Of a stretch of 64,000 bases of DNA, positions 22,401 through 39,296 are shown piece after piece. The DNA lies in the IMG/VR virus record IMGVR_UViG_3300022074_000013, positions 1-64,000 of that record. One strand, given 5' to 3'. The notes under the pieces were generated by a model that had not been told where the DNA came from, made no database searches, and was given only the letters and a program-made list of their open reading frames with translations. Position numbers and translations under genes: made by a program. Origin of the DNA: a virus. How positions within the stretch are numbered: position 1 is the first letter of the stretch; each line of letters begins with the position of its first letter.

Positions 22401-23159
22401 AACTATTACTTCGATACAATACACACAATGATACCAAGTGTTCAATTGAAAGGAACATTGTTGCATACTAATATTAGAACAACTGCAATGAAATCGCCAG
22501 AAGGTGTTGGTGGAACTGCATATGTTAAAAACAATACTGCAGAGTTTATCACATTAAATGATAACCACTTCTTAGACCAACCTTCGATTGTTGCTTCACC
22601 TATCAATGAAACTAATGAAATGGCAAGTGTGAAGTCATTTACTTGTACTTTGCAAATGCAATCACCTAGGGGTAACTTGTCACCAATGATTGACATTTCT
22701 TCTTTAGGTGCATTAGGTATCATGAACAGATTAAATAACATAGACAGTAGTTCAGATGTACCTACAGGAATCACATATGTTGATTCTACGGAACCCGATG
22801 GTGACAACAATGCATTTGTATACTGTACAAGAAAGGCGTCTCTGGCTACGCCTGGCACCGCCGTGAAGGTAATGTTAGACGGATTTAGACCTTCGGGAAC
22901 TGATTTAAAAGTTCTTTACAAGGTGTTAGAAAACGATAACTCGACACCATTCGATGATATCGGTTGGAGATATTTTAATACAGACGGTTCGCCAGATATC
23001 GCTGTAGGAAATGACGCAAGAAACTTTAAAGAATATAATTATACTCAAGAGGGACTAGCAGAGTTCTCAGCATTTGCAATTAAGATTGTAGGACAGTCAA
23101 CTAATACTTCCACAGTCCCACTTGTAAGTAACCTGAGAGCGATTGCATTAGCAACATAA
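16497..23159 (+). CDS. Giant baseplate wedge / proximal fibre protein, DUF4815-like
   Basis: 2220 residues. The N-terminal part (MPEKVDLNVSPYYDDYD, then YRPSRPIQARELTQAQSILQ near residue 31) matches the DUF4815-type protein found after gp8 in cyanophages and pelagiphages, in the T4 gp10 position. A long beta-rich body follows. Residues about 1556-1610 are a proline-rich linker (PLPDPNFPATPPAEPDPP and more) running into an Asp/Phe-rich strand. Then DPLAQSFLVDKSGGMYLTEVD starts a separate C-terminal jelly-roll-like part of about 600 residues. It is probably the fibre connector between wedge and tail fibres; enzymatic motifs were not seen. Confidence 0.8.
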   Translation: MPEKVDLNVSPYYDDYDEDKKYHKVLYRPSRPIQARELTQAQSILQNQIERFGDHMFKEGSIITGAESNVDMDVMYVKVESTNPNGLGTTGVENYRTTFDNKYLQGETTGAVAQVVTSYAETSTDPITYIVRMYKSGSDTNNSIRFSAGEELKEVTIDANGSASSASNNNELKIKDSTHTPVGRSSLAEIQEGIIFTRGFFTKVNQQQITLEKYSGAPSYRVGLEIAETLVGSSTDSTLFDNAQGSSNENAAGADRLKIELTLAKHLIDSTTDANFIELMRVNNGIMELSIQRPEYNAFANLLAQRTFDTSGDFIVNQFVPNLKEHLDDGTNGGVYSTINGGDESKFVVKTSAGKAYVKGYQVDKLVGSTIPIRKARSTASLTGASTPVRLGNFVKVINSHGLPEFGNESGTDAQKPYGIVKLFDAVTATPGTENTSGQIGFARIRNFDMATAGTSNSSEVWDNATRFNAYLFDIKMFTKLKYSAHSGTAVVGDKITGSVSGATAIVGYDDGSGALYVHDVVGTFTSADAISSTNGSFAMSAGQHTGENFRGTANEVRTYNIDRVRGISQAPNVTARETFTADIYTDQDFILTGQVSMSSTSVTGFATKFTAELKEGDIVIDGAGNERVISSITSDIAATLTGAVGTALTNANATRRRTRVFDQEQVASIFAWPRDYVKTHTPDQVQVRRSQNVTLSSGTITLTCGSGESFSTRTDDNYIFSVVEAQTSGSPTLVNGDMVDVVNNLSGAPFTDTISGNNLEFSGFPTADDGAILKVTFTVDINSPVNRDKSLKQARCLSVVNSRTTGGFYGTCYNDKEISLGVADVFKVRAIYEGNGATAPLPPSGTITETSSPAIPFQSFEVIKGNTSDARAVIVNYNGSTNKSYFYYTTLNKTFIEGEVLVGQTSKATGNLTNFDQGATNITDRYYFDDGQRDGFYDHGRLQLKPGNPTANNQILVLLDYFTSSGNGDFFDVNSYSGIDYETIPRYVPSKVDLGGLEPDGEFELADAVDFRPVLGQLLGTTTFGSATPNPESPINISNTTSGIVSSPFAYASKSFESAVTGISATGASAVDVPVPGSNVVGDISFYVGRIDKVFLHKDGEFQIAQGTPALTPMKPKGIDDAIELYELRIPPYTDDLKRVRLRSVDHRRFTMKDIGKISNRVANLERLTTLSLLERDTQTMQFKDADGFDRFKSGFVVDSFKGHNVGDVNHIDYNCSVDTKSGVLRPKNFQNFFDIEFDSVNSSEFQKTGDLITLPYTSTTYVNQSKASRAMNVNPYHVFAFIGNVSLTPASDIWQDQTQLPEVRINREGNFDALLAESADLGTVWNAWQTNWVGEPTTVSTEVLSTSSGSWSGDPAQGGEWVSGTEVSREITNTIETQSRTGIRTTVVEDFVEDRNDRVVSISVIPFIRAQTIEIDAVNLKPDSFHYVFFDQQDVNRFVRPFNATYSQDGGTGVTSGIKADGNGRVRAYFDLPNNGPDRFPTGQRDLKVTSSVYNESNPSSGGQAQFSAQGLLQTNQTEIISTRNGRTIVGATAGERQITRRGEQMNSRNVDTDAPPVPLPDPNFPATPPAEPDPPREDPPLPPPPIPNINLPLNIDFDFDFNVFEFGGWMDPLAQSFLVDKSGGMYLTEVDLFFKTKDESLPVSVEIRNMVNGYPGQIILPFSEVTKNPADVNLSQDGSVSTTFTFQSPVFLEQNQEYCFVVLSNSNKYEAFISRMGETDLVTGQTISGQPYAGSLFASQNASTWTAEQTDDLKFHLKYARFDISKRPIVKFNNKALEASPLQNNPIESYAGENYVRVYAYGHGMYDNSSNAVIAGVTGEKTGAIINIEAEGSIATTGTMGSTSTGVATTTDGSGTGCKLDITVSSGSITSIKIADPGFGYTTSNKLTVTNFGSATNTVEIDIDTVDQTIGGIPISCINGTYTAISGTDIDSYTVIPDLSSTDLKTGYVALESTQSGGGNATAQRNYYFDTIHTMIPSVQLKGTLLHTNIRTTAMKSPEGVGGTAYVKNNTAEFITLNDNHFLDQPSIVASPINETNEMASVKSFTCTLQMQSPRGNLSPMIDISSLGALGIMNRLNNIDSSSDVPTGITYVDSTEPDGDNNAFVYCTRKASLATPGTAVKVMLDGFRPSGTDLKVLYKVLENDNSTPFDDIGWRYFNTDGSPDIAVGNDARNFKEYNYTQEGLAEFSAFAIKIVGQSTNTSTVPLVSNLRAIALAT

Positions 23160-24993: not shown

Positions 24994-26406
24994 ATGTCAG
25001 ACGAAATATATATAAACACCAAGAACACTCCGCATAGTCAACTAGGACAATTAGGTAGTTCAGGCAATTTTCAACAACCGTATCAAGGTCAAGCAGCTGT
25101 TACGGGTACTTTGCAGGCACAAAGAGCTGTAACTGGTCAAACTCCGACTACTTATCAGGCAAGATATCCATTTACTTACCAAGCAAACGCACGTGGAAGA
25201 TATCCATATCCTGCAAACTCTCAGACGCCATATCCTGCTTCAGCACAAGGACAATATCCATTTACTTATCCTGCGATAGGACAAAATCCCTATACGTTTG
25301 AATATATCGCAAGATATCCATTCGCTTATCAAGCAAGGTATCCGTATCCTGCAAACTATACAGCACAGGGAAGATATCCTGCTAATGCAAGTGGTACATA
25401 TCCTTATCAACAAAATTATCAAATAGCATATACTTTTCCGTATACCTATAGCGCCCGTAGACCTAGTCCTGCTAACCACCGTGGTACATATCCATATTCA
25501 GCGAGGACACAGGTAGTCAATAGGGCAAGATATCCGTTTACTACATCTACTCCCCTTTTTGGGCCTCACGGATATCAAGTTCCATATCCGTTCTTTTTTA
25601 GTTTTGACCCTAAAGACCCAGGCACAAATGCCCAAGGTCGAAGGCCTGCTAATAGACAAGGATATTATCAAGGGTCACAGAATGTAAGAGGTCGTACACC
25701 TTCTATTGCCAATGGAAGAAGACCTGTAAATGGTACAACTCCTTGGCCAGAACCTGAATTGAATTCACAGTTTCCGATTCCTTATGCGTATCAACAGCCT
25801 TATTCGTTTACTCCAAGAACACAACAACCATATATTGCAACTGGAAGATATCCATTTACACAGCAAAGTCAACAACCTTATATTACCAATGGGCAGGGAC
25901 AGGGTAGTACACAACACCAAAAAAATGCTCAAGGGCCTTATCCATTCACTTATCAAGCAAGATATCCATACCCTGCAACTTACCAAGCAAGAGGAAGATA
26001 TCCTGCTAGTGCACGTGGTATGTATCCAGCTCAAGCAAATGGACAACAACCGTTTAGTTATCAAGCAAACGCACGTGGAAGATATCCATTCATTTATACT
26101 GCACGTCAGCCAGGCACTTATCAAGCACAGGGAAGGTATCCATTTACATATCCTGCAAATGCTAGAGGAAGATATCCTGCTAGTGCACAGAATCCATATC
26201 CGTTCCAGCAGAACTATCAACAAAATTATATTTTCCAACAACCATATTCTACAACTAGAAGTATTGGTGCAGCTGCCAAAGTTAAAGCGGTGTACTTGAA
26301 TGACGCTGGAACTTTAAGAAAATTACAAGAAGTATATGTAAATAATCAAGGAACACTAGAAAAAACTCACCAAACAGTTCCAGCAGCTCAATTTAGTAAA
26401 TCATAA
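24994..26406 (+). CDS. Dipeptide-periodic Pro/Tyr/Gln/Ala/Arg repeat protein A
   Basis: 470 residues. After a short start, residues about 50-415 are built of Pro, Tyr, Phe, Gln, Ala, Asn, Arg, Gly, Thr and almost no acidic residues. Modules such as TYQARYPF, YPANARGRYP and QNPYPFQQ recur. Proline-to-proline distances are nearly always even (22 consecutive even intervals before a central break near FFFSFDPKDPG, 17 after it), so the true period is two residues. The C-terminus is ordinary sequence with two copies of a VYLNDAGTLRK / VYVNNQGTLEK module. It is surely a virion or fibre-associated protein by place; the function is unknown. A paralogue lies at 32779. Confidence 0.75.
   Translation: MSDEIYINTKNTPHSQLGQLGSSGNFQQPYQGQAAVTGTLQAQRAVTGQTPTTYQARYPFTYQANARGRYPYPANSQTPYPASAQGQYPFTYPAIGQNPYTFEYIARYPFAYQARYPYPANYTAQGRYPANASGTYPYQQNYQIAYTFPYTYSARRPSPANHRGTYPYSARTQVVNRARYPFTTSTPLFGPHGYQVPYPFFFSFDPKDPGTNAQGRRPANRQGYYQGSQNVRGRTPSIANGRRPVNGTTPWPEPELNSQFPIPYAYQQPYSFTPRTQQPYIATGRYPFTQQSQQPYITNGQGQGSTQHQKNAQGPYPFTYQARYPYPATYQARGRYPASARGMYPAQANGQQPFSYQANARGRYPFIYTARQPGTYQAQGRYPFTYPANARGRYPASAQNPYPFQQNYQQNYIFQQPYSTTRSIGAAAKVKAVYLNDAGTLRKLQEVYVNNQGTLEKTHQTVPAAQFSKS
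25144..26250 (+). repeat. Degenerate repeat region of protein A
   Basis: Coding repeat with six-base (two-codon) underlying period. Frequent coding words are GGAAGATATCC, TATCAAGCA and CCTGCAAATGC in varied order, so it is not a simple tandem array. The array is interrupted between about 25591 and 25800 by non-repeat residues. Confidence 0.75.
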
Positions 26407-26410
26407 TAGG

Positions 26411-26418
26411 TATAAATA
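26411..26418 (+). promoter_or_regulatory. Late promoter TATAAATA five bases before 26424
   Basis: Perfect consensus followed by five bases and the ATG at 26424; predicts a leaderless transcript. No ribosome binding site fits between the box and the ATG. Confidence 0.75.
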
Positions 26419-26423
26419 GTTAA

Positions 26424-26756
26424 ATGGCAATAATCGCAAACATATTCATAGACCAAGGTACAGACTTTGCTATACAAGTTGACCTAACAGATACAGTAGG
26501 TGATGTATTGAATCTCACTGGATTTACTGCGACTGCCCAATTAAGAAAAACATATGGTTCTTCAAATGCGGCCGCAACCTTTACATGTTCACATAATGGA
26601 GTTGGTGGAACAGTTACAATGACATTAACTGATACTATTACAACTGCTTTAGAAGCAGGAAGATATGTATATGATTTATTGATAACGGACAGTGGCGGTT
26701 CAATAAGTCGTGTCGTTGAAGGACAAGCAACAGTAACGCCAGGCGTAACGAGGTAA
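26424..26756 (+). CDS. Small Ig-like virion protein
   Basis: 110 residues forming one predicted beta-sandwich: NIFIDQGTDFAIQVDLTDTVGDVLNL, then ATAQLRKTYGSS and AGRYVYDLLITDSGG. This pattern resembles the BppU/Ig-like baseplate upper-protein domain used to hold fibres in many phages. It lacks a signal peptide and enzyme motifs. It is followed after two bases by the 68-residue gene, so the two are co-expressed. Confidence 0.65.
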   Translation: MAIIANIFIDQGTDFAIQVDLTDTVGDVLNLTGFTATAQLRKTYGSSNAAATFTCSHNGVGGTVTMTLTDTITTALEAGRYVYDLLITDSGGSISRVVEGQATVTPGVTR

Positions 26757-26758
26757 AC

Positions 26759-26965
26759 ATGGCAATTAAAGGAAAACTTAGAGGAACAGGAAATATCAAA
26801 GTACAAACTTTAAAAGTTGGAGTTACAGACGTTAATCTATCAGCAAAATCCATTCAGGAACTACAAGACGTAGAAGCTTCAGAAACTGATAAAGGGTATC
26901 TACAATACGACCAAACCACCGATAAGTGGAAAACTACCACAGTCATTGACGGTGGCACTTTCTAA
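26759..26965 (+). CDS. Small fibre-associated protein ending IDGGTF
   Basis: 68 residues: a basic N-terminus, VGVTDVNLSAKSIQELQDV, then GYLQYDQTTDKWKTTTVIDGGTF. The last part is the fibre-type 'yLqyD..tdKW' strand found at the ends of longer marine fibre proteins. The last six residues are shared with the 477-residue fibre protein that follows. It could be a split-off fibre terminus or an adaptor. Confidence 0.6.
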   Translation: MAIKGKLRGTGNIKVQTLKVGVTDVNLSAKSIQELQDVEASETDKGYLQYDQTTDKWKTTTVIDGGTF

Positions 26966-26968
26966 TCG

Positions 26969-26976
26969 TATAAATA
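26969..26976 (+). promoter_or_regulatory. Late promoter TATAAATA with long leader
   Basis: Perfect consensus directly after the 26759 gene. The predicted start near 26982 gives a leader of about 113 bases before the ATG at 27095. Confidence 0.7.
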
Positions 26977-26981
26977 GTATA

Positions 26982-27094
26982 AGACACATATCAAGGGAAC
27001 AACCAGTGAGTTCCGACCCACATTGTGAGTGGATAGGTTCATTATGGATATACCCATGTGGGATTAATAACAGAATTATACGAGGAAAAAATAA
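26982..27094 (+). other. Structured untranslated leader of the 27095 fibre gene
   Basis: No reading frame. Two hairpins stand side by side: GGAAC/GTTCC (26996-27014, loop of nine) and CCAC/GTGG (27018-27032, loop of seven). A CCCATGTGGG palindrome follows near 27053, and ACGAGGAAAAAATAA precedes the ATG. The longest leader among the late genes here. It is not a tRNA by eye. Confidence 0.45.
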
Positions 27095-28528
27095 ATGGCA
27101 ACAGTAATTCAAATTAAAAGAACGACTGGTGTTTCTAGCCCTACAGTATCGGATTTAGCAGAAGCGGAATTGGCGTATGTCCAAGACCGTTCTAATGACG
27201 GTGCGTCCTCAAAGTTGTTCATTGAGTCTGTAGATTCAAGTTCAAACCCAGTTATACATGAAATTGGTGGTAAATTTTTTACTGATATCATAAAGGGTTC
27301 TACACCCACACCTGCTAACTTAATTGTTGGTAATGGTGCGACTGCTGGTGCAGAGATTCAACTTAGAGAAGATTCTGACAACGGTACAAACTATGTTGCT
27401 TTGAAATCGCCAAATGCGGTTGGTTCAAATGTAACATTTACACTGATGGGTGCAGACGGTTCTGCTAATCAGGTAATTGAAACCGATGGTTCAGGAAATT
27501 TAGGTTTTAGGACAGTAACATCAACAATTGACGGTGCAACAGACACTAATATCACTTCAGCAGCTGACGGTGCAATGTTACTGTATGATACAGGAACATC
27601 TAAGTGGATAGATAACGTAATGTCAGGTGACGCTACTATGGCGGACACTGGTGTTATGACTATCTCAAATGACGCAGTCACACTTGCTAAAATTGCAGAC
27701 GCAGTTATTATTACAGAATCAGAAGGTATCTCAAGTAATGATGTAGATACGGGGTTCCCAACAGCGGCTGCTGTTAAGGACTATGTTGATTCAAACATAA
27801 CTGCTCAAGATTTAGACGTTACAGGTGATTCAGGAACAGGTGCGGTAGACTTAGATTCTCAAGCGCTAAATATCGTAGGAACAACAAACGAGATTGTAAC
27901 TTCTGCGAGTGGACAAACAATCACAGTAGCTTTACCTGATGACGTAACTGTAGGAAATAGTCTAACAGTAACAGGTAACTTAACGGTTAACGGTACTACC
28001 ACAACTGTTAACTCAACAACTACAACAGTAGACGACCCAATCTTTACAGTTGGTGGAGACAGTGCTCCTGGCTCAGACGACAACAAAGACAGAGGTATCG
28101 AGTTTAGATACCATGACGGTTCTTCTGCTAAAATTGGTTTCTTTGGATATGACGATTCAGTAAATAAGTTTACGTTTATCTCAGACGCTACAAACACTTC
28201 CGAAGTATTTTCAGGTTCAGCAGGTAATGTTGCATTTGGAAACATGGAAGGTGTTGGTTTAGCATTAAGTGGTTCAATAACTTCTGTAGACGGTTCTGCA
28301 CCAACTAACGGTCAGATTCTAATGGGACATACTTCAAATGGAGATATGCAATTAGGAACAATCACTGCAGGTGAAGGTATTGACGTAACTAATGGTGCTG
28401 GTAGCATAACAATTACGGGAGAAGACGCAACAACGTCAAACAAAGGTATCGCAAGTTTTGCTAGTGCAAACTTTACAGTATCAAGTGGTGCAGTAACTAT
28501 CACTGGTATTGACGGTGGGACATTTTAA
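27095..28528 (+). CDS. Tail fibre protein
   Basis: 477 residues. The start MATVIQIKRTTG followed by LAEAELAYVQD is the common head of marine phage fibres (a 'VIQIKRS..P..L..GELAY' module). The body is Thr/Ser/Gly/Asp-rich beta with repeated GVMTISNDAVTLAKIAD and NLTVNGTTTTVNST segments. It ends VTITGIDGGTF, sharing IDGGTF with the small protein at 26759. No enzymatic motif. Good ribosome binding site (ACGAGGAAAA). Confidence 0.75.
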   Translation: MATVIQIKRTTGVSSPTVSDLAEAELAYVQDRSNDGASSKLFIESVDSSSNPVIHEIGGKFFTDIIKGSTPTPANLIVGNGATAGAEIQLREDSDNGTNYVALKSPNAVGSNVTFTLMGADGSANQVIETDGSGNLGFRTVTSTIDGATDTNITSAADGAMLLYDTGTSKWIDNVMSGDATMADTGVMTISNDAVTLAKIADAVIITESEGISSNDVDTGFPTAAAVKDYVDSNITAQDLDVTGDSGTGAVDLDSQALNIVGTTNEIVTSASGQTITVALPDDVTVGNSLTVTGNLTVNGTTTTVNSTTTTVDDPIFTVGGDSAPGSDDNKDRGIEFRYHDGSSAKIGFFGYDDSVNKFTFISDATNTSEVFSGSAGNVAFGNMEGVGLALSGSITSVDGSAPTNGQILMGHTSNGDMQLGTITAGEGIDVTNGAGSITITGEDATTSNKGIASFASANFTVSSGAVTITGIDGGTF

Positions 28529-28548
28529 TTATTAGAATAGGGTAATAC

Positions 28549-29688
28549 ATGGCAACAGTCATAACGTTCAAGAAGTCATCGACTCAGAACGCTGTTCCAA
28601 CTACCTCAGATATCACTCTTGGGGAATTGGCAGTAAATACTTACCACGGTAGGTTTTACACTGAGAAGAATGACGGTTCAGCTGCCATTGTAGAAGTAGG
28701 GTCTAATCCTGCATCATTCACTATTAATGACGCAATCACATTCCCCACTTCTGACGGTTCAGCTGACCAAATAATTACAACCGATGGTTCGGGGACTTTG
28801 ACGTGGGCAGACCAAAGTGGCGGAAGTTATGGAACAGGTGCAACTTTTACCTTTTCTCTAACAGGAACCACAACCACTATATCAGGAAATGATGATGATG
28901 GGCAAGCATTGTCATATGATATTGGAAAAGAAGCAGTATATCTAAACGGTGTACTATTACAAGACGGTGGTGTTGACTACGCAACAACAAGTTCCTCAGT
29001 AATTACTCTTCAAGCAAATGGTGAAAGTGGTGACGTTGTTTGTATTAAAACACCTAAAAATCCAGGCGTATTAGTTGAAACTGCAAGTTCAGCATTGACA
29101 ACTACTGATTCAAACCAAACTATTCTTTCAATTGCTTCTGCTGGAACAAAGTCAACTAAAATATCTTTGACTGCAGTTCATTCAACAGGTTCACATTCAT
29201 GCGAAGTTCTCATGGGTAATGACGGTAGTAACGCATTCTTTTCACAATACGGTGACGTAACAACTACAGGTTCATTCTTGTATGATTTATCCACAACAAT
29301 GTCAAGTGGTAATCAATTATTGAGAGCGACACCTGCTAATACTAATACAACTTTCTTTTTAACTTACAGTAGATTACCAGCACTCAAAAACGGTGAGTTG
29401 ACAACTACAACTACAACTGCAGACCAAACATTAGATACGTGTTCAGTTGCATATGAAGGAGTTAAGTATTCATTACTTGCAGTTCATTCAAGTGGGTCAC
29501 ATGCGTGTGAGGTTGTAGTAGGTACAGACGGTACAAACGCATTCTTCTCACAATATGGCGATGTTATAACTGCAAGTTCTTTATTCACTCTAAATACATC
29601 AGTTAGTTCAGGAAATACTAATCTATTAGTAACTCCTGCTAATACGAATACTACGTTCTATTGGAACGTGACTAAGAGAGGAGAATAA
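28549..29688 (+). CDS. Tail fibre protein with duplicated C-terminal domain
   Basis: 379 residues. The head MATVITFKKSSTQNAVP and LGELAVNTYHGRFY is paralogous to the 27095 protein. The C-terminal half holds two copies of a domain of about 95 residues (about 185-282 and 283-379). Both show LTAVHSTGSHSCEV / LAVHSSGSHACEV, then NAFFSQYGDV, then TPANTNTTF. The 137-residue gene that follows has a third, diverged copy. The domain reads as a beta-sandwich; a role in host-surface binding is inferred from location. Confidence 0.72.
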   Translation: MATVITFKKSSTQNAVPTTSDITLGELAVNTYHGRFYTEKNDGSAAIVEVGSNPASFTINDAITFPTSDGSADQIITTDGSGTLTWADQSGGSYGTGATFTFSLTGTTTTISGNDDDGQALSYDIGKEAVYLNGVLLQDGGVDYATTSSSVITLQANGESGDVVCIKTPKNPGVLVETASSALTTTDSNQTILSIASAGTKSTKISLTAVHSTGSHSCEVLMGNDGSNAFFSQYGDVTTTGSFLYDLSTTMSSGNQLLRATPANTNTTFFLTYSRLPALKNGELTTTTTTADQTLDTCSVAYEGVKYSLLAVHSSGSHACEVVVGTDGTNAFFSQYGDVITASSLFTLNTSVSSGNTNLLVTPANTNTTFYWNVTKRGE

Positions 29689-30101
29689 TGCCAAGGTCAT
29701 TAGCATTCAAACTTGCAGAAATTTCTAGGCACATAGAATATGATGCCACTAATGACGATATTGTTGTAAGTAAAGAATTAGTTTCTTCAAGAAGGAAATC
29801 GGGTTCTACAACTACGACTGCGACAACTCAAGTCGCACTGGATACGTTTGCACATGCAACATTCTCAACTGCAAGATACATTGTATCCGTAACTCAAGGT
29901 TCAGATTATCATTCTACAGAACTTGTTATATCTCATAACGGTTCTAGTGCAGATATCCTTGAGTATGGTATTCTCAAATCAGGTAGTGATTTAGCAACAT
30001 TCAGTGCTGATATCAGCGGTGCAAATGCAAGATTACTCATAACTCCTGCCTCTTCAAGTTCAACTGTCTTTAAATTTGATAGACAACTAGTAGAATCTTA
30101 A
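29688..30101 (+). CDS. Small virion protein, third copy of the fibre C-terminal domain
   Basis: 137 residues starting in an overlap with the stop of the 28549 gene. After a short N-terminus (LAFKLAEISRHIEYDATND) it carries SVTQGSDYHSTELVISHNGSS, then LEYGILKSGS and LLITPASSSSTVFKFD. These line up with the duplicated domain of the neighbour (HS.GSH..E / QYGDV / TPANTNTTF). So it looks like a detached domain copy that may pack against that fibre. Confidence 0.65.
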   Translation: MPRSLAFKLAEISRHIEYDATNDDIVVSKELVSSRRKSGSTTTTATTQVALDTFAHATFSTARYIVSVTQGSDYHSTELVISHNGSSADILEYGILKSGSDLATFSADISGANARLLITPASSSSTVFKFDRQLVES

Positions 30102-30108
30102 TCCTAAA

Positions 30109-30181
30109 CTCCGTTTAGTTATAAATAACAGTAGACATTTTTAATAATGCTGTGAACTGGGATAGTGAACAGTAAACGGAG
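30109..30181 (+). promoter_or_regulatory. Inverted repeat that can hide the ribosome binding site of the 30191 fibre gene
   Basis: CTCCGTTTA at 30109-30117 is the exact complement of TAAACGGAG at 30173-30181. The second arm contains the GGAGG ribosome binding site of the GTG start. The first arm lies upstream of the late start site predicted from the box at 30120, so only read-through RNA could form this 9-bp pairing. Confidence 0.5.
30120..30127 (+). promoter_or_regulatory. Late promoter TATAAATA of the 30191 fibre gene
   Basis: Perfect consensus; predicted start near 30133, leader of about 58 bases that begins after the first arm of the inverted repeat. Confidence 0.72.
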
Positions 30182-30190
30182 GCGAACAGC

Positions 30191-32755
30191 GTGGCTGCAA
30201 AGAATTTTCATGTAAAAAACGGACTGAGTATCGGTACAACCGAGGTAATCAACAGCTCAGGTCTTATACAAACAGCCGCACTAGGAAGTGATTTTAACGA
30301 AAAGGTTGACGACAGAGTCAACGCATTAATCGTTGCAGGAACAGGTATTTCTACCTCATATGATGATAGTGCAGGCACATTAACAATCAACGGACAAGTC
30401 GGGGATATCACGGGCGTAACTGCTGGTGACGGTCTTTCAGGTGGTGGAACAAGTGGTGCGATAACACTCGCACTGGATAGTTCAGTAGCTGGTGACGGTC
30501 TTGCACATTCAAGTGGTGTTCTATCAGTCGGAGTAGACGATAGTTCAATCGAAACAGATTCAGACGCATTAAGAATTAAAGCAAGTGGTGTTACTAATGC
30601 CATGTTGGCAGGTTCTATTGCAAACGATAAACTATCAAATTCATCAATTACAGTTTCAGACGGCAGTAATACAACTGCGACAGCATTAGGTGGAACAATA
30701 ACCTTTGCTGGTGGTGAAGGTATAGATGTTGCAGAAAGTTCAGGCACAGTCACATATTCAGCGGAACTTGCAACAGAAACAAACGCTGGTGTCGCAACAT
30801 TTGACGGAACAGACTTTACTGTATCAGCTGGTGATGTCACGGTAAACGCAGAAAGAATTCAAGATATCGTTGGTGCAATGGTATCAGGAAATACTGAAAG
30901 TGGTATCACAGTTACATATGAAGACGGTGACGGTACTTTAGACTTCTCTACTACACTAGGTGGTCTTGCTGGTACTTCTGATAATATCACAGAAGGTTCA
31001 ACAAATTTATTCCTTACCAACGAAAGAGTAGACGATAGAGTAAACGCACTATTGACTGCTGGTACAAACATGTCATTGACATATGACGATGCAGCTAATA
31101 CTTTAACAATTGCGTCTTCGGGTAAAACAGAAGAAGAAATAGAAGACATTGTTGGTGCACAACTTGCTACAAACGGTTCACACACAAATATCACTGCAAC
31201 ATATGACGATGCTGGTGACGGTGCGGTAGACCTTGCAATTACAGACGCAACAATCAGAGGAAAGGTTTCCGTAACAGATTCAGGTGGAGACGGTTCACTT
31301 GCATACAATAACTCTACAGGTGTTATCACATATACAGGCCCAAGTGCGTCAGAAGTAAGAGCACATATCTCAGGTGGAACAGGTGTTACTGTATCAAGTG
31401 GTGAAATTGCAATTGGACAAGCAGTTGCAACAAGTTCAAATGTAACTTTCGCAGACGTAGCTGCAACAGGTAATTTGACAGTTACAGGTAACTTAGATGT
31501 AAACGGAACAACCACAACTTTAGACACTACAAACTCAACAATTACAGATAGATTGATTGAGTTAGGAAATGGTACAACAGGAACACCTGCAAATGATATG
31601 GGTATTGTTCTTGAAAGAGGAGACTCAGACAACGCATTTATAGGTTGGGATGAAAGTGCAGACAAATTCTTAGTAGGTACAGGTTCATTTACAGGTGCAA
31701 GTACAGGTGACTTAACAGTTACTACAGGAACACTTGTAGCAAACTTAGAAGGTAACGTAACTGGTAACGTAACTGGTGACTTGACTGGTAACGTAACTGG
31801 TAACGTTAGTGGAACTGCAGCTACAGTAACAGGTGCAGCTCAAACAAACATTACAAGTCTTGGAACTCTTACAGCATTAACAGTAGACGATATTAGTATT
31901 GACGGTTCAAAGATATCTATAGCCGATAACTCAGCAACTGCTCTTACCATTTCAGAAGGTAGTAATGACTATTTAACTTTTAATACTACAGACTCAGCAG
32001 AAACAATATTATTAGGAAAACCTCTTGATACAAATGGTAATGCAATTATTTTTGATGTAGATGGTGATACATCAATTGCTGGTTCACCTATTGATGATAT
32101 GTTGATATTTAAATCTGGTGGAGCTTCATGGTTATTAGCTTCTGCAAATGTTGGTTTATCACCAAATGTTGCATTCCCCCTTGGTAATTCAAGTTATCCG
32201 TTTACCCATTTATATGTGGACAATATTTTTGTTGATGGTAATACAATTAAATCAGAAAATTCAGATGGCGATTTAATATTTAAAGGCAACGATGGCGGTT
32301 CAGAAATAACTGCTCTTACACTTGATATGTCTGAAGCAGGTGCAGCTACTTTTAATGCAGGAGTAACTGCTACTACATTTACAGGTGCATTAACTGGTAA
32401 CGTTACTGGTAACTTAACTGGTAATGTCACAGGTAATGTTAGTGGAACTTCAGGTTCAACAACAGGTAATGCCGCTACAGCAACTGCATTACAAAATGCA
32501 AGAACAATCAACGGAGTATCTTTTGACGGAACTGGAAACGTAACAACCTTGACTGCAGGAACAGGTGTTTCTGTATCAGGAACCGAAGTTGCAATCGGAC
32601 AAGCAGTTGCTACAAACAGTAACGTGACCTTTAATCAGATACACACCGACTACGCAAGTAATAGTGGACAAGTTGCAAGGAACATTTACCAATCAACTTC
32701 TGCTCCAAGTGGTGGAGACGGACAAGTCGGCGACTTATGGATTTTATACTCTTAA
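30191..32755 (+). CDS. Large tail fibre protein (GTG start)
   Basis: 854 residues. The GTG start is chosen because GGAGG lies ten bases upstream and MAAKNFHVKNGLSIGTTEVI is the usual head of this fibre type. Two copies of ERVDDRVNAL, and runs such as NVTGNVTGDLTGNVTG, show the collagen-like or beta-prism style repetition of marine fibres. The end STSAPSGGDGQVGDLWILYS is a typical fibre terminus. Around 31975-32345 the codon choice shifts (Asp GAT before G becomes common), which suggests a recombined segment. Own late promoter at 30120. Confidence 0.75.
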   Translation: MAAKNFHVKNGLSIGTTEVINSSGLIQTAALGSDFNEKVDDRVNALIVAGTGISTSYDDSAGTLTINGQVGDITGVTAGDGLSGGGTSGAITLALDSSVAGDGLAHSSGVLSVGVDDSSIETDSDALRIKASGVTNAMLAGSIANDKLSNSSITVSDGSNTTATALGGTITFAGGEGIDVAESSGTVTYSAELATETNAGVATFDGTDFTVSAGDVTVNAERIQDIVGAMVSGNTESGITVTYEDGDGTLDFSTTLGGLAGTSDNITEGSTNLFLTNERVDDRVNALLTAGTNMSLTYDDAANTLTIASSGKTEEEIEDIVGAQLATNGSHTNITATYDDAGDGAVDLAITDATIRGKVSVTDSGGDGSLAYNNSTGVITYTGPSASEVRAHISGGTGVTVSSGEIAIGQAVATSSNVTFADVAATGNLTVTGNLDVNGTTTTLDTTNSTITDRLIELGNGTTGTPANDMGIVLERGDSDNAFIGWDESADKFLVGTGSFTGASTGDLTVTTGTLVANLEGNVTGNVTGDLTGNVTGNVSGTAATVTGAAQTNITSLGTLTALTVDDISIDGSKISIADNSATALTISEGSNDYLTFNTTDSAETILLGKPLDTNGNAIIFDVDGDTSIAGSPIDDMLIFKSGGASWLLASANVGLSPNVAFPLGNSSYPFTHLYVDNIFVDGNTIKSENSDGDLIFKGNDGGSEITALTLDMSEAGAATFNAGVTATTFTGALTGNVTGNLTGNVTGNVSGTSGSTTGNAATATALQNARTINGVSFDGTGNVTTLTAGTGVSVSGTEVAIGQAVATNSNVTFNQIHTDYASNSGQVARNIYQSTSAPSGGDGQVGDLWILYS

Positions 32756-32778
32756 TAAGGGTAACAGGATAATATAAT

Positions 32779-34152
32779 ATGGCATCAGGCTCACAGAAGG
32801 TTAAAACACCTACAGGCTGGAACGCAACTCAAGGTGCGTGGGTTAAAACGCCTGACGGTTGGCGTGCAGTAGAGCAAGTCTATATTAAAACGCCTGACGG
32901 GTGGAATAATGCTAGTGGTCAAGAAGATACACAACAACCTGCTCGAAGACCTGCAACTGGTAGACTTCAAGCACAAAGACCTGCAACTGGTCAATTACAG
33001 GCACAAAGACCTGCAATAGGAACAACACCTGCAAGAAGACCTGCGACTGGTAGACTTCAAGCACAAAGACCTGCATCAGGACAGTCGCCAAGCACTTATC
33101 AGGCGCAAGGAAGATATCCATATCCTGCCAATGCACAGGCACCTTATCCTGCTAATGGACAACAGCCAGGCACATATCCTGCTAACGCTCAGACGCCTGG
33201 CACATATCCTGCAAATGCTAGAGGAAGATATCCTGCTAACGGACAATCGCCAGGCACATATCCTGCTAATGCGAGACAGCCAGGAACTTATCAGGCAAGA
33301 TATCCATTTACTTATCCTGCTAACTCACAAAGTCCATTTACGTATCAGGCAAGATATCCATTTACATACCCTGCTAACTCACAGTCACCATTTACGTATC
33401 AGGCAAGATATCCGTTTATTGCACCTACAACATATCAGGCACCTACAACGTATCAGGCAAGATATCCATTTATTACACCTGCGAGACAACCTTTCACTTT
33501 CTCATTCATGAAAGACGGGATAGTTTATAACGGTCAGAATCCTTTTACTACAAGTGCAAGGGGTAGGTATCCTGCTAATACAACGTATCCTGCTAACACG
33601 AATACAAATGCACGTGGAAGATATCCTGCCAACGCAAGGCAGCCAGGAACTTATCAGAATAACGCAAGAGGAAGATACCCTGCTAATGCAAGACAGCCAG
33701 GCACATATCAAAACAATGCACGTGGAAGATATCCTGCGAACTCACAGTCACCATTTACTTATCAGACGCCTTATAGAACTCCGTTTACATATCAGGCAAG
33801 ATATCCATTTACATATCAAGCGTCTTATAGAATTCCGTCTACTTATCAGGCGTCTTATAGAACACCGTTTACGTATCAGGCAAGACAACCTAGCACGTAT
33901 CAAGCACAAGGAAGATATCCGTATCCTGCTAACGCACAGACATCATATAATTTCCAACAGAACTATCAGAACCCATACCCGTTCCAACAGAATTATCAAA
34001 ATCCGTATCCGTTCCAACAGAACTATCAGAACCCGTATCCGTTCCAACAGAACTATCAGAACCCGTACCCATACCAGCAGAACTATCAAAACCCTGTTCA
34101 ACGTTGGGACGGTGTGTTACAACAACAATGGCCTGCAACACCTATTTCGTAA
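32779..34152 (+). CDS. Dipeptide-periodic Pro/Tyr/Gln/Ala/Arg repeat protein B
   Basis: 457 residues, paralogue of the protein at 24994. The N-terminus has three copies of a KTPxGW module (KTPTGWNATQG, KTPDGWRAVEQ, KTPDGWNNASG). Residues about 54-440 are repeat: PATGRLQAQR units first, then YPANxQxP and TYQARYPF units. At the end come five near-perfect copies of a ten-residue unit (FQQNYQNPYP). I count 31 even proline intervals, one interval of 17 across a central non-repeat insert (FTFSFMKDGIVYNGQN), then 25 more even ones. Pro and Tyr/Phe stay in opposite phases. Acidic residues are nearly absent from the array. Probably an extended fibre or adhesin component. Confidence 0.75.
   Translation: MASGSQKVKTPTGWNATQGAWVKTPDGWRAVEQVYIKTPDGWNNASGQEDTQQPARRPATGRLQAQRPATGQLQAQRPAIGTTPARRPATGRLQAQRPASGQSPSTYQAQGRYPYPANAQAPYPANGQQPGTYPANAQTPGTYPANARGRYPANGQSPGTYPANARQPGTYQARYPFTYPANSQSPFTYQARYPFTYPANSQSPFTYQARYPFIAPTTYQAPTTYQARYPFITPARQPFTFSFMKDGIVYNGQNPFTTSARGRYPANTTYPANTNTNARGRYPANARQPGTYQNNARGRYPANARQPGTYQNNARGRYPANSQSPFTYQTPYRTPFTYQARYPFTYQASYRIPSTYQASYRTPFTYQARQPSTYQAQGRYPYPANAQTSYNFQQNYQNPYPFQQNYQNPYPFQQNYQNPYPFQQNYQNPYPYQQNYQNPVQRWDGVLQQQWPATPIS
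32938..34104 (+). repeat. Degenerate repeat region of protein B
   Basis: Coding repeat with two-codon period. One sub-block (about 33292-33414) repeats an 18-residue unit of alternating ARYPFT, YPANSQ and SPFTYQ; other parts use different module orders. Confidence 0.75.
33951..34100 (+). repeat. Five tandem 30-bp units in repeat protein B
   Basis: Five units of 30 bases beginning with TTCCAACAGAACTATCAGAA or a close variant. The third and fourth are almost identical and the fifth is diverged. Each encodes FQQNYQNPYP or a variant. Such a tract could gain or lose units by slippage without breaking the frame. Confidence 0.85.
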
Positions 34153-34188: not shown

Positions 34189-35715
34189 ATGACAGAAATT
34201 GACCATTTAATTGATTTTATTCCATTTCGCCTAGACTGGACGCAAGAAAGTGTTCGTAGACAACTCTTTTATAAGAGCGGTCACCATATTGGCAATATTC
34301 CTGTTAACGAAGACGGTTCTATTGATACTGAATGTGACACATATAAAGTTGTACAATACTTTGTAGATAATGTTTATGTTCCTAATGTGAAATTAGTAAC
34401 TTGGGGTGATATTAAAAAGTGCGGATTCATGCCTTTGGAATCATTTGGATTAGACTATCAAGCGTCTAATTATTTAAAGTATATTCCTAATTTCCATACT
34501 TACGGTGCTAGTATGAAAAAAATAACTACCGCAACGGGAGATATTACTGGTGGAAATGAAGATGGAAATGATATAACTGGTTCGGGATTTTATCATGGGT
34601 GTAAAGGACATTGGTTATTACATGATATTCAGAAGAATGGTTTAAATCAACCGATAACTATTGTATTACAAAAAAGCGGAAGAAACGATAGAATTGAATA
34701 CAACCCACATATACACCCTGGCTCAGTACGACAAGGTGTATTCGGTGCGACAGACGATGAAAGTATGACCTGTATTGTTTGGGACGCATATAACGCCTTT
34801 GATTGGATAGAACCTTTAACTACTGATGAGTGGTTAAGAAGTTTTACTACACCACAGTTTGACGGCATGAGACCGACACAATTACATGTATCTTACAATT
34901 ATACTAGTATTGAAGTGCAAACTTCGGGTGAATGGAATAATGGAAGGTCAGAACCCGATAGACAATGGAGAGAAAAAGTAAAGGATTTTTCTAAAAAGGT
35001 ATCAGAAAAATTCAATGGAAAACCTTTAAACATATATCTTGGGTATGATTCAAGACATGAAGATATAACAGACGTACAAATAAATTCTATTAATCAAGCA
35101 TGTCAAAGAGCAGTTAATGACTCACAGTGTAGATTTGAACCTGAAATAAAACTACTTGACGTATCAAAGATTCCCGAATATACTAGAGAGTACGCAAATC
35201 AATCGACAGAATTTACTTATAGCAGATTCTTAATTCCATACTTAGAAAATTATGAAGGGTTTAGTATATTCATAGATAATGATTTTGTATGGAAACAACC
35301 TTGGTATGAAATGTTTTATTTTCTACACCCCGACAATGCAGTAGCATGTGTTCAATATGAATATGAACTAGAAAAAATGTCTAAGACTAAAATGGGTGGT
35401 GAAGAGAATGTTATGTATCCTAAAAAGTTGTGGTCTAGTTTCATGATATTTAATAATGCTCATGAAGACTGTAAAAAATTAACACCCGAAGTTGTAAATA
35501 CTGCGAGTGGTCAATACTTACACCAGTTTGAATGGACTGATAGTATTGATAGAATCCCTGACAAATATGTCTTTACAGAAGGCATGTCAGACGAAGATAA
35601 AAGATATCATGCGGTGCATTATACAAGAGGTGGCCCATGGATAAAAGATATGGACTGTAGTGACATATCGCAATTAAAGTTATACGAAAAGTATAAAAAT
35701 ATACTCAATAAATAA
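34189..35715 (+). CDS. ParB-like domain fused to a GT-A glycosyltransferase
   Basis: 508 residues. The N-terminal half has a ParB/sulfiredoxin-like pattern: HWLLHDIQKNGLNQPITIVL (about 141-160) then HPGSVR (176-181). The C-terminal half (about 275-508) is a glycosyltransferase of GT-A type. It shows PLNIYLGYDSRHED, then FTYSRFLIPYLENYEGFSIFID with a DND metal-binding motif at 363-365, and HYTRGGPW near the end (GT8-like). It probably transfers a sugar to a surface glycan or a virion/DNA target; the fused ParB-like part may guide or regulate it. There is no ribosome binding site before the ATG. Confidence 0.65.
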   Translation: MTEIDHLIDFIPFRLDWTQESVRRQLFYKSGHHIGNIPVNEDGSIDTECDTYKVVQYFVDNVYVPNVKLVTWGDIKKCGFMPLESFGLDYQASNYLKYIPNFHTYGASMKKITTATGDITGGNEDGNDITGSGFYHGCKGHWLLHDIQKNGLNQPITIVLQKSGRNDRIEYNPHIHPGSVRQGVFGATDDESMTCIVWDAYNAFDWIEPLTTDEWLRSFTTPQFDGMRPTQLHVSYNYTSIEVQTSGEWNNGRSEPDRQWREKVKDFSKKVSEKFNGKPLNIYLGYDSRHEDITDVQINSINQACQRAVNDSQCRFEPEIKLLDVSKIPEYTREYANQSTEFTYSRFLIPYLENYEGFSIFIDNDFVWKQPWYEMFYFLHPDNAVACVQYEYELEKMSKTKMGGEENVMYPKKLWSSFMIFNNAHEDCKKLTPEVVNTASGQYLHQFEWTDSIDRIPDKYVFTEGMSDEDKRYHAVHYTRGGPWIKDMDCSDISQLKLYEKYKNILNK

Positions 35716-35733
35716 GAATAGAGGTAATATATT

Positions 35734-36291
35734 ATGAATCAACTTGTTTTTACAGAAGATAACAATCTTCACATCACCAAACCAAACGGTTTGAGATACC
35801 AATTTGACAATGTCGAAAAACCAAATTTAGGTTTTGATTTTGACGTTATTGTTTATGACGGAGACAGCGAATTTAAAATTGTCGGTTACAACGATGACAT
35901 TCCTTTCGATGAACAGGATAAACATGCACTTGTAGACGAAGAAAGAGACGCTATCGAACAGTTTATTGAACAGTCAGAACCACCAAATGGTATGTCCTTA
36001 AACAATCAGTTTATGGCAGACTTAGAAAATTTAACTCACGACAAAATAGAAGACTGTGCAATAAGATATAATTTTAGAAATCTTAACGAATGTGTATATG
36101 CTGGACGAGAAGGTTCTAATCATACGTATAGGTCAGAAGCACGTAGAGTTTTAGAATATGCAGATGCAACTTGGTCAATATGTTTTCAAACGCAAGAAGA
36201 AATAATGGCAACAAGAGAAGACCATTTGAAACCTTTTGACGAATACGTAGTAGTGTTGCCTGAAACAGTATCACCAAATAATATTTGTTAA
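35734..36291 (+). CDS. Unrecognised acidic protein in the accessory island
   Basis: 185 residues, acidic, without membrane segments. The first half is beta-like (FTEDNNLHITKPNGLRYQFDN, then VIVYDGDSEFKIVGYNDD); the second is helical with several Cys and Trp. TAGAGGTAATATATT precedes the ATG. It lies between the glycosyltransferase fusion and an oxygenase, whose GTG start comes one base after its stop, so it is probably part of the same surface-modification cassette. I cannot assign a family. Confidence 0.6.
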   Translation: MNQLVFTEDNNLHITKPNGLRYQFDNVEKPNLGFDFDVIVYDGDSEFKIVGYNDDIPFDEQDKHALVDEERDAIEQFIEQSEPPNGMSLNNQFMADLENLTHDKIEDCAIRYNFRNLNECVYAGREGSNHTYRSEARRVLEYADATWSICFQTQEEIMATREDHLKPFDEYVVVLPETVSPNNIC

Positions 36292-36292
36292 A

Positions 36293-37054
36293 GTGAACGT
36301 TGTCTACCACGACAAACCTTTCAGACTAACGAAAGATAATTATCCGTTAGGGGATACCTTTCATGTTATCGATAATTATTTGGCGGACGAATTACACCAC
36401 CATTGGGATAAGTCATTAGTCGCAAGTAACCTTTGGTCTAAAACTAATCAAGTTGCGTCCGATAGTAAAACAGGATTACCACATCATTCCTTTTGGGGTG
36501 GAACATTTTTTAGAGATGTTCCTAATCATGAACACGTAGATTGGTGTCAAGGAAATCAGATAAATCGTTCAGATACTTACTTTGCTTCATATTTTAATAC
36601 TAGAGTAATGAATGACTTTGGTTTTCGTTGGGTTGAGTTTGATTACATGGGTTTGAATTCACAAACTCAAGGACTAGACGGTACATGTCATAATGATTGT
36701 GCGCCTGAATGTGAGTGGAACATATCTTTTTTGTATTACTTAAATACATTTTGGAATCCTAAATGGGGCGGTGACTTAAGAGTGTATGATGAAAATATTG
36801 GTAGCGGTGTTGCAGAAGAAATGAACAAACACGAAATAGGAAGAATAGAATTTAAACCAAACAGATTACTTATGTTTGACGGAAGGATACCTCATGGTGC
36901 AGAAGCACCAAAACCTTCTGCAAGATATGTAGATAGACGTTCATGTGTATTGCGTGGTTCAGAAATAAGATTAGTACCTCAAGAAGAACAAAGAAAAGAA
37001 GTTGCACCAAGACAACTAAGATATCAGAGATATATGAGATATGCCGACAATTGA
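36293..37054 (+). CDS. 2-oxoglutarate/Fe(II) oxygenase, prolyl-hydroxylase type (GTG start)
   Basis: 253 residues. Iron ligands are visible as H133-N-D135 (in TCHNDC) and H201 (in PHGAEAP), followed by Arg residues around 211-216 that could bind 2-oxoglutarate. WNISFLYYLN and WGGDLRVYD form the usual double-stranded beta-helix strands. The enzyme would hydroxylate a peptide, nucleoside or small molecule using O2 and 2-oxoglutarate; the substrate is unknown. The start is GTG directly after the previous stop. The next gene begins inside this one at 37041. Confidence 0.8.
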   Translation: MNVVYHDKPFRLTKDNYPLGDTFHVIDNYLADELHHHWDKSLVASNLWSKTNQVASDSKTGLPHHSFWGGTFFRDVPNHEHVDWCQGNQINRSDTYFASYFNTRVMNDFGFRWVEFDYMGLNSQTQGLDGTCHNDCAPECEWNISFLYYLNTFWNPKWGGDLRVYDENIGSGVAEEMNKHEIGRIEFKPNRLLMFDGRIPHGAEAPKPSARYVDRRSCVLRGSEIRLVPQEEQRKEVAPRQLRYQRYMRYADN

Positions 37055-37910: not shown

Positions 37911-38545
37911 AATACGAAGGATATACAGAGTTCGAGGCTAATAAAACTAAAGGTGATAACAATGTTGGAGTTGATATCGATAGTTTATACGAAGGACAAA
38001 CTAATGTTCAAATAGAAGGTTTTGATGTAGGTACAGACGCCAGTACACCTGCTTTTTATATTTGGAATTCTATGAACTGGCACGAAGATACTTATTGTGG
38101 TTGGAAAACTTTTAAAGGTGAACAAGACCATAATACACTGTCAACAGTATGGGAAACGAGGTGGTGGCATTCAATCCAACCAGCACCTTACAAGTATGTG
38201 GGTGGCCCTTATAGAGCTGCTGTTGCAGATTATACTTTTGGTGTGTTTGGATTATTCTTTTGTCAAAGGTTTGTTCCAATTACAGATTTGAGAGTCACTT
38301 ATGACAAAGCAATTAAAGTAGGTGATACTATAGAATGTGTAATAACAAACACTGTAATTGAAAATGACATTTTGAAACAAGAGTTAATTCAAAGAATTTA
38401 CGGTAGTGATGAAATTGTTGGTCGTGCTTGGGCAAGTCACTTCATGAAGAAGAAAGAAGACTATAAAGAAAAACAACAAGACTTAACTGAATTAAATGGT
38501 GACGGTAATCGTGACCGAGGAAGGTACGGGGAAGATGTCAGTTAG
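37907..38545 (+). CDS. Unknown protein, weakly hotdog-like (GTG start)
   Basis: 212 residues starting with GTG in an overlap with the previous stop. The second half, FVPITDLRVTYDKAIKVGDTIECVI followed by alternating strands to VGRAWASHFMKKK (about 125-185), recalls the thioesterase hotdog fold, but catalytic residues are not evident. The first half is Trp- and Tyr-rich (WNSMNWHEDTYCGWKTF). A C-terminal charged tail overlaps the next gene. Treat the fold idea as a hypothesis. Confidence 0.55.
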   Translation: MKYEGYTEFEANKTKGDNNVGVDIDSLYEGQTNVQIEGFDVGTDASTPAFYIWNSMNWHEDTYCGWKTFKGEQDHNTLSTVWETRWWHSIQPAPYKYVGGPYRAAVADYTFGVFGLFFCQRFVPITDLRVTYDKAIKVGDTIECVITNTVIENDILKQELIQRIYGSDEIVGRAWASHFMKKKEDYKEKQQDLTELNGDGNRDRGRYGEDVS

Positions 38546-39296
38546 ATTACTGTTTCCACATTACGTATTTCAAAGAAATATGTTAGACCCAAATCTTGAC
38601 GAAAGTCAAGGATATGATTTGGAGTATAACGAAATGTTAGTTGCAGAAGTTGACGCAATGCGTAAGCGTGACCCTAAAGGTAGACTTGTATCTAATTCAC
38701 CTAACCCTGCTACAATGCATAGGTCGGGTTGGCAGTCTAATGACGGTTGTGAAAGTAGTCCAGTCTTTCAGAAATGTATGAATCGTATCAGTAAGTTTTT
38801 TTCTGACGAGGTTTTACCTTTTCATGGTATTCAAAATTCTAATGGTCTTAAAATGAGGCCAGGCAATTCATGGGCAAACATAAATGAAACTATGTCTTGG
38901 AATAGACCTCATACTCATAATGGTTGTTGGTATTCAGGTGTTTTATATCTAAAAGCAGACGGAGATGAAGGTAACTTTTCTGCAATTGATACAGACTCTA
39001 AAGTTCTGTCTATGTTTCCGCACCACCAAAGAGTTAGAACTAATTGGGACGTTCAACCTAGAACAGGAGATATTCATATATTTTCTAGTGGTTTAATGCA
39101 TATGGTTGAACCTAATATGACTGACAAAGAAAGATATAGCATATCGTTCAATATGGATTTACATGACGTGGTAGGCCCAACTGGATTCTTTCCTGATAAT
39201 GGTGCTGGTTACTTTGGTCAAGACTTTACTGTTGATGAATGGAATCCTGATGAATTTTCATTTAATTTAGACGAAAGAGGAAATCCAATACGTTAA
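38535..39296 (+). CDS. 2-oxoglutarate/Fe(II) oxygenase family protein
   Basis: 253 residues from the ATG at 38535, which I prefer to the in-frame ATG at 38496 because MSVRLLFPHYVF is the natural start and GGGGAAG precedes it. It fits the putative 2OG-Fe(II) oxygenase family of TIGR02466 type, with H126-T-H128 in RPHTHNG, SGVLYLKADGDEGN, H189 in LMHMVEPN and R200 in ERYSISFN. It is therefore a different subfamily from the neighbour at 36293. It closes the accessory island; the next gene has its own late box. Confidence 0.75.
   Translation: MSVRLLFPHYVFQRNMLDPNLDESQGYDLEYNEMLVAEVDAMRKRDPKGRLVSNSPNPATMHRSGWQSNDGCESSPVFQKCMNRISKFFSDEVLPFHGIQNSNGLKMRPGNSWANINETMSWNRPHTHNGCWYSGVLYLKADGDEGNFSAIDTDSKVLSMFPHHQRVRTNWDVQPRTGDIHIFSSGLMHMVEPNMTDKERYSISFNMDLHDVVGPTGFFPDNGAGYFGQDFTVDEWNPDEFSFNLDERGNPIR

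Follow-up and report, generated by a model that had tools for sequence, protein, structure and literature searches.

Proteins of a marine T4-like phage read as long antiparallel beta-ribbons with a rung-by-rung pairing code

In a 64,000-nucleotide stretch of viral DNA (positions 1 to 64,000 of IMG/VR record IMGVR_UViG_3300022074_000013; hereafter the window), two proteins with long arrays of alternating residue classes appear to fold back on themselves as very long antiparallel beta-hairpins, in which an N-terminal arm would run out to a tip and a C-terminal arm would return in a single register. These are the type 1 protein, with a self-pairing array (470 residues, 24994..26406, on the + strand like every feature located below), and the type 2 protein, a putative single-chain hairpin (457 residues, 32779..34152) that is the counterpart of two proteins, A and B, in related viruses. 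In most relatives the type 2 hairpin would be cut at the tip, and A and B would form the same ribbon as a heterodimer. Statistics of the sequences support pairing, its antiparallel direction, its register, its code and compensatory change, and they make it almost certain that the arms, or A and B, pair residue by residue in antiparallel orientation. We assign a probability of roughly 0.87 to the geometry of a register-locked, two-stranded antiparallel beta-ribbon. The wider proposal also seems likely, namely a protein duplex of rung-by-rung complementary proteins, often encoded by two genes, that follows a general pairing code over up to 527 residues and includes a variant with a Hint domain. 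Such a duplex would evolve by paired compensatory indels and substitutions, like the strands of an RNA helix.

A preliminary description of the window, made from its letters and open reading frames (ORFs), had reported that successive prolines in both proteins stand at even distances. Both ORFs lie at the coordinates that it gave, and proline-to-proline distances were recounted on their translations. For type 2 the recount is identical, with 31 consecutive even distances, one of 17 and a further 25 even ones (58 of 62 even overall). For type 1 (49 of 55 even) the two even runs around an irregular centre were confirmed, with lengths of 24 and 18 in place of 22 and 17, outlying distances having been omitted earlier. 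Shuffles that keep composition give even fractions of 0.46-0.47 and longest runs of about 5 for the two proteins. Under dipeptide-preserving shuffles the even fraction is 0.53 and 0.57, and none of 2000 attains the observed fraction or run length; the refuting outcome that the description had named, no excess of even spacing over such shuffles, did not occur. The parity rule extends to related viral contigs, where 99 distinct array ORFs scored in the same way have 3642 of 3987 distances (91%) even. Across the family, proline makes up 28% of one phase and 0.5% of the other; in the same phase order, tyrosine makes up 0.2% and 21%, phenylalanine 0.5% and 10%, and alanine 2.4% and 18%. The claims that the two-residue period reflects extended beta strands and that the phase is strictly selected are supported.

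Relatives were gathered from IMG/VR in two scans, the first giving 75 loci with type 2 relatives and the second 201 contigs. Most carry type 2 split into two adjacent genes, of which A encodes a base domain with KTPxGW motifs followed by an array, often with a terminal Hint domain, and B encodes an array with a RWDxxxxQQWPATPxS end. Because both gene orders occur (A-B at 41 loci, B-A at 13), A and B are read as separate chains and not as a broken gene. Array lengths, measured by a hidden Markov model (HMM) trained on phase composition, range from 173 to 432 residues in 40 distinct A/B pairs and agree closely within pairs (r=0.98, slope 0.98), with a mean difference of 7.6 residues versus 58 in permuted pairs; sister-pair contrasts of A versus B length give r=0.92. 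The arms of seven fused proteins agree equally well (r=0.98), measuring 201 and 193 residues in the window protein and 183 and 183 in that of L005. Since a short tip joins the arms in these single-chain forms, arms that lie side by side over their full length have to be antiparallel.

When A is anchored at its start and reversed B at its RWD end, the proline ladder aligns at one offset in nearly all phages, with a Jaccard index of 0.76 for matched and 0.25 for swapped partners. Mutual information (MI) between facing residues reaches 1.57 bits at a single offset, two residues from that of the proline alignment, and is symmetric about it, compared with 0.35-0.39 bits for swapped partners and 0.25 for a parallel reading; the proline-free phase alone gives 1.43 versus 0.16. 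Pairing A with A or B with B yields no consistent register, and no register is prominent when type 1 is set against type 2 (0.52 versus 0.47 bits for swapped partners). Module use varies with position along the arms and tandem repeats abound in the DNA, and complementarity might on these grounds be a by-product of shared composition gradients or DNA-level repeats, without physical pairing. This is extremely improbable: once partners are swapped, the signal at that register is lost (0.35 bits; -1.73 bits per position in the predictive test described below), the parallel reading carries none, and what is learned from split pairs also works as a code for fused and type 1 proteins. Nor were inverted DNA repeats found between arms, and no 12-mer of one window arm recurs in the reverse complement of the other.

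Facing residues follow strong preferences. In the proline phase, proline faces glutamine in 49% and arginine in 45% of cases; conversely, arginine faces proline in 98% and glutamine does so in 81%, and asparagine faces threonine in 76%. In the other phase, phenylalanine faces alanine (75%) or glycine (12%), arginine and valine face tyrosine (90% and 74%), glutamate faces serine (99%) and histidine faces asparagine (60%). Rungs with two aromatics make up 0.5% of the total, and those with two prolines 0.3% versus an expected 8.1%. Preferences are alike whether read A:B or B:A (r 0.97 and 0.85). On one face the code comprises P:Q/R, T:N/S and I:Q/N/A/D/S, and on the other Y:A/R/G/N/V, F:A/G, E:S, H:N and Q:T/S; this near-deterministic side-chain code would set both the choice of partner and the register.

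The code is predictive. With relatives left out of training, A ranks its own B at the top in 30 of 30 cases (1.27 bits per position for own partners versus -1.73) and in the identical register each time. In five new independent pairs from the second scan, dissimilar to the training set, A again places its own B first; four keep the same register, and the fifth re-locks beyond a 44-residue shift in a tandem repeat. Derived from split pairs only, the code settles on exactly the register of the split pairs, measured from the landmarks, in each of the seven single-chain proteins. For type 2 of the window, the register in which residue i faces 491-i scores 128 bits over 194 pairs, the next register -111 and all others below -100. 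When its C-arm is shuffled with the phase kept, the scores average -439 bits (standard deviation 50, maximum -259), compared with 111 for the protein as observed, and of its 58 proline rungs 49 face glutamine or arginine and none faces proline. Within type 1, the same code sets residues 38-172 against 278-412 with a score of 103, versus at most 45 for C-terminal halves from other phages and 30 for a parallel fold; across nine phages, the two halves of type 1 share an MI of 1.18 bits at one offset.

These registers delimit the parts of both window proteins. Type 2 begins with a base domain carrying three KTPxGW motifs (residues 1-48, 32779..32922), matched in 67 of the 75 related loci. The N-arm follows as first strand (residues 49-243, 32923..33507) and, after a tip turn (residues 244-247, 33508..33519), the C-arm as second, antiparallel strand (residues 248-441, 33520..34101); 145 of 196 rungs are favourable and none pairs two prolines. 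The turn occupies the middle of FTFSFMKDGIV, at the fold centre given by the pair code and at a low-confidence tip hairpin from AlphaFold2. An FxFSF stretch in mid-array, as described earlier, is indeed present; its reading as an insert is corrected here to that of a hairpin tip. The protein ends in an anchor, RWDGVLQQQWPATPIS (residues 442-457, 34102..34149), a terminus that is conserved in protein B and in all fused proteins. In type 1 the N-arm (residues 38-172, 25105..25509) pairs by the code with the C-arm (residues 278-412, 25825..26229) at a 1-based index sum of 450 (446 for residues 38-43). Between them HMM segmentation marks an unpaired, irregular tip region in which the phase is broken (residues 173-277, 25510..25824); these roughly 105 residues could be a head domain and are a candidate for receptor binding. 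A C-terminal base domain (KVKAVYLNDAGTLRKLQEVYVNNQGTLEK, 26251..26403) is conserved in relatives and is the sole part outside the array with a family match (phrog_13729, E 6e-6). BLAST gave no alignment between the base domains of types 1 and 2.

Paired change between facing sites is seen directly among close relatives. Between L048 and L017, indels of -8, -2 and -12 in A at positions 75, 95 and 129 are mirrored by indels of -8, -2 and -12 in B that face 76, 98 and 130. Between L040 and L042, indels of +14, +2 and +2 at 116, 176 and 195 have partner indels facing 114, 176 and 197, and L064 and L029 differ by mirrored indels of -46 and -46. Substitutions co-occur at facing sites with an odds ratio of 12.1 at the register versus about 2-3 at distant offsets, and for double substitutions the native pairs outscore chimeras in 118 of 138 cases. 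The preliminary description had proposed that module order is shuffled and that selection acts on a dipeptide alternation, as in silk-like extended strands. In its general form this reading has silk-like or amyloid-like strands, selected for the alternation alone, whose interchangeable modules stack non-specifically. The strict alternation of two residue classes and the repeat-rich, low-complexity sequence would suit such strands; indels mirrored between facing sites, substitutions that compensate each other there, a module order constrained to the partner's (1.27 versus -1.73 bits per position), and prolines in one phase that block the outer edge needed by a silk or amyloid sheet make this reading highly improbable. 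The shuffled order is wrong in substance, as the facing order of the other arm fixes the order of each arm. Selection on the alternation alone likewise lacks support, the order of the N-arm (or A) setting that of the C-arm (or B) in antiparallel direction and one register.

From the pairing we infer beta geometry and a two-stranded state. Strict alternation together with an index sum that stays constant for hundreds of residues characterizes an antiparallel beta-ladder, and in a two-stranded ladder the NH and CO groups of alternate residues face either the partner or outward. Proline would be confined to the phase whose NH points outward because there, lacking an NH, it costs no inter-strand hydrogen bond; proline that is restricted to outward positions would therefore produce even spacings and even indels, mirrored in the partner. 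Outward prolines would also block the free edges against aggregation, and one aromatic per rung opposite a small or flat residue would keep the thickness of the face constant. With 0.33 nm for each residue, the type 2 ribbon of the window would have about 194 rungs and a length of about 64 nm; in type 1 about 135 rungs would be paired, and some 105 residues would make up the tip region. The longest relative, L115, would reach 527 rungs and about 174 nm, the ribbons overall being put at 50-170 nm.

Several observations weigh against this picture. AlphaFold2 gave low confidence for the whole type 2 protein and for its tip segment (predicted local distance difference test, pLDDT, 36 and 42), both runs producing only a short tip hairpin at an index sum of 493, two residues off the expected register. 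A lone two-stranded ribbon 60-170 nm long would be flexible, and a higher-order bundle is likely. The length rule has exceptions in L054 and L022, which are off by 18-36 residues, and in L129, with its 44-residue shift. The fibre role discussed below comes from gene position, and searches of the phage collection matched the family in no isolate. As to the lengths, the A/B mismatches (L022, L038/L054 and L129; 18, 36 or 44 residues) always lie in near-perfect tandem repeats, and those of L022 and L038/L054 are multiples of 18 residues; they are probably assembly collapse, though possibly real, and A/B complementarity could thus serve as a check on assemblies. The low-confidence models, and the probable need of so long a fibre for more than two strands, leave some room for arms that pair antiparallel and in register without forming a beta-ladder, as extended or polyproline-like chains within a larger solenoid or trimeric prism. 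We consider this unlikely. The period of polyproline II is three residues; extra pairings at shorter range, expected of a solenoid or trimeric beta-helix, were not seen; and a two-residue alternation whose index sum stays constant for 190-527 residues is the hallmark of an antiparallel beta-ladder.

A Hint domain ends about half of the split A relatives (profile hits to Vint, Hint and Intein_splicing; e.g. L030, L035 and L065). It follows a glycine run and sits exactly at the hairpin tip, where A meets B. Among 20 such domains, Cys1 is present in 20, TxxH in 19 and a terminal His-Asn in 19, the last trailed by 4-14 residues without Cys, Ser or Thr at +1. Self-cleavage of the domain may link A to B and so close the hairpin, giving the single-chain topology of the window protein; alternatively, the domain may attach the fibre tip to the host surface. 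No Hint domain was found in the window protein or in its genome record. Some matches to the split proteins were set aside. Isolate matches to protein A in phiRM10 and F23s1 are antisense to annotated features and were discounted as chance, and Vibrio and Acinetobacter hits to protein A are confined to the Hint domain. Matches of protein B to Pseudomonas phages involve an unrelated SAASNTG repeat with four prolines and no self-pairing. That repeat is a separate observation, an 8-residue SAASNTG[D/N/Y] tandem unit in an otherwise ordinary protein of unknown function (L168:1053-2375 and L169:1113-2138), with a copy number that differs among these phages. Two GTDB metagenome-assembled genomes, named Flavobacteriales and Sphingobacteriales, carry the family (contigs L086 and L087), which may weakly hint at Bacteroidota hosts or may reflect mis-binned phage contigs.

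The window belongs to a T4-like marine myovirus with a virus record of 94.8 kb. Among isolates, its VrlC-like baseplate protein (16497-23159) is best matched by proteins of Methylophilales phage Melnitz and Pelagibacter phages Mosig and HTVC008M. Types 1 and 2 lie between this gene and that of the neck protein, with a gp8-like protein nearby, and bracket fibre ORFs, as described earlier; that they belong to a fibre cluster is supported. A host-recognition region between VrlC and neck genes has been described for pelagimyophages (PMC7029224). From this position we infer a location in the virion and a role in adsorption, and it is fairly likely that the ribbons are virion fibres, with the base domain on the tail or virion and the tip, an irregular head or in many relatives a Hint domain, pointing outward. 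The same viral record also encodes CsgG and CsgF, and phage curli (CsgG/CsgF) operons have been reported in pelagimyophages (PMC7029224); types 1 and 2 might instead be extracellular fibres of the infected cell, exported by this system and absent from the virion. Such export is very unlikely, since a curlin-repeat protein (PF07012) is already encoded in that operon, along with a second repeat protein that looks secreted and has signal-like N-terminal sequence, whereas types 1 and 2 start with MSDEIYIN and MASGSQKV, without an evident signal peptide, and sit amid baseplate and tail-fibre genes. The operon itself lies beyond the window (L171:3176-7185, G000:C1 about 74175-78184) and encodes CsgF (PF10614), CsgG (PF03783), a FecR-domain protein, the Curlin_rpt protein (PF07012, E 9e-7) and the second repeat protein with its signal-like N-terminus. 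A 616-residue ORF follows at L171:7729-9579 (G000:C1 about 78728-80578) and looks, by eye, like a membrane-bound adenylate/guanylate cyclase that has a sensor region at its N-terminus.

Downstream of type 2, or of A/B, a cassette in fixed order (34189-39296) encodes a glycosyltransferase-like protein, an unknown protein, a 2-oxoglutarate- and Fe(II)-dependent (2OG-Fe(II)) oxygenase, a second unknown protein and another 2OG-Fe(II) oxygenase. The cassette and the three enzymes located here are each present in 68 of the 75 related loci, and the other seven include loci with little or no downstream DNA. The glycosyltransferase-like ORF (34189..35715; phrog_28018), a possible modifier, resembles phage nucleotide-diphospho-sugar transferases in its C-terminal part. 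The first oxygenase (36293..37054; PF13640, Pfam E 2e-9) is a possible prolyl hydroxylase, its sole isolate match being annotated as prolyl 4-hydroxylase alpha (26%); the second (38496..39296) belongs to PF13759 (Pfam E 8e-19). That these enzymes modify the arrays, for instance by prolyl hydroxylation, is a guess.

Sequence-programmed pairing over hundreds of residues is a property of nucleic acids that proteins approach mainly through coiled coils. A beta-strand counterpart seems to have evolved in nature: its code can be read, its partners are specific, and independent examples of it occur in at least 201 viral contigs. The ribbons offer orthogonal parts of set length for building fibres, testable with synthetic peptides; they are a clear case now missed by structure predictors, and they suggest a way in which common T4-like phages of the sea make long fibres of a class that none of the searched isolates has. 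In Pfam, PHROGs, NCBIfam and the PDB the arrays matched no known fibre family, solved fibre or other entry, in agreement with the earlier statement that no known fold or family is matched; B arrays gave only short, weak hits to PHROGs. A literature search found no described equivalent, and to our knowledge no protein system with so long a pairing code has been described.

Known systems share individual traits with it. Trimeric phage tail fibres and needles (T4 gp34/gp37/gp12, the triple-stranded beta-helix of gp5 and the adenovirus shaft) are likewise long beta-rich rods with base and tip domains, encoded in the tail-fibre region; unlike the phage ribbons, they are homotrimers with intertwined or repeat-hairpin folds, without two-gene complementarity, and they have no sequence match to the ribbons. 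Silk fibroin and other dipeptide-alternating beta fibres also place alternating residue classes in extended strands, but silk strands are interchangeable, whereas the order of a ribbon would be dictated by one partner and its prolines would block sheet growth. Curli (CsgA/CsgB), whose system is present in the same phage genome, form beta-rich extracellular fibres, their curlin repeats stacking as beta-arcs once exported through Sec and CsgG; neither type 1 nor type 2 matches a curlin model and, as noted, neither has an evident signal peptide. The tip domain of the split A relatives has Cys1, TxxH and His-Asn in common with bacterial intein-like (BIL) and Hint domains, but, unlike BIL domains, it caps a fibre strand and carries a tail of 4-14 residues without Cys, Ser or Thr at +1. 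In heterodimeric coiled coils, two chains likewise select partner and register through a side-chain code, and orthogonal pairs exist. Coiled coils are alpha-helical, with a seven-residue period and few deciding positions, whereas the phage ribbons would be beta-ladders that repeat every two residues and whose rungs are all informative, over a length of 170-527 residues.

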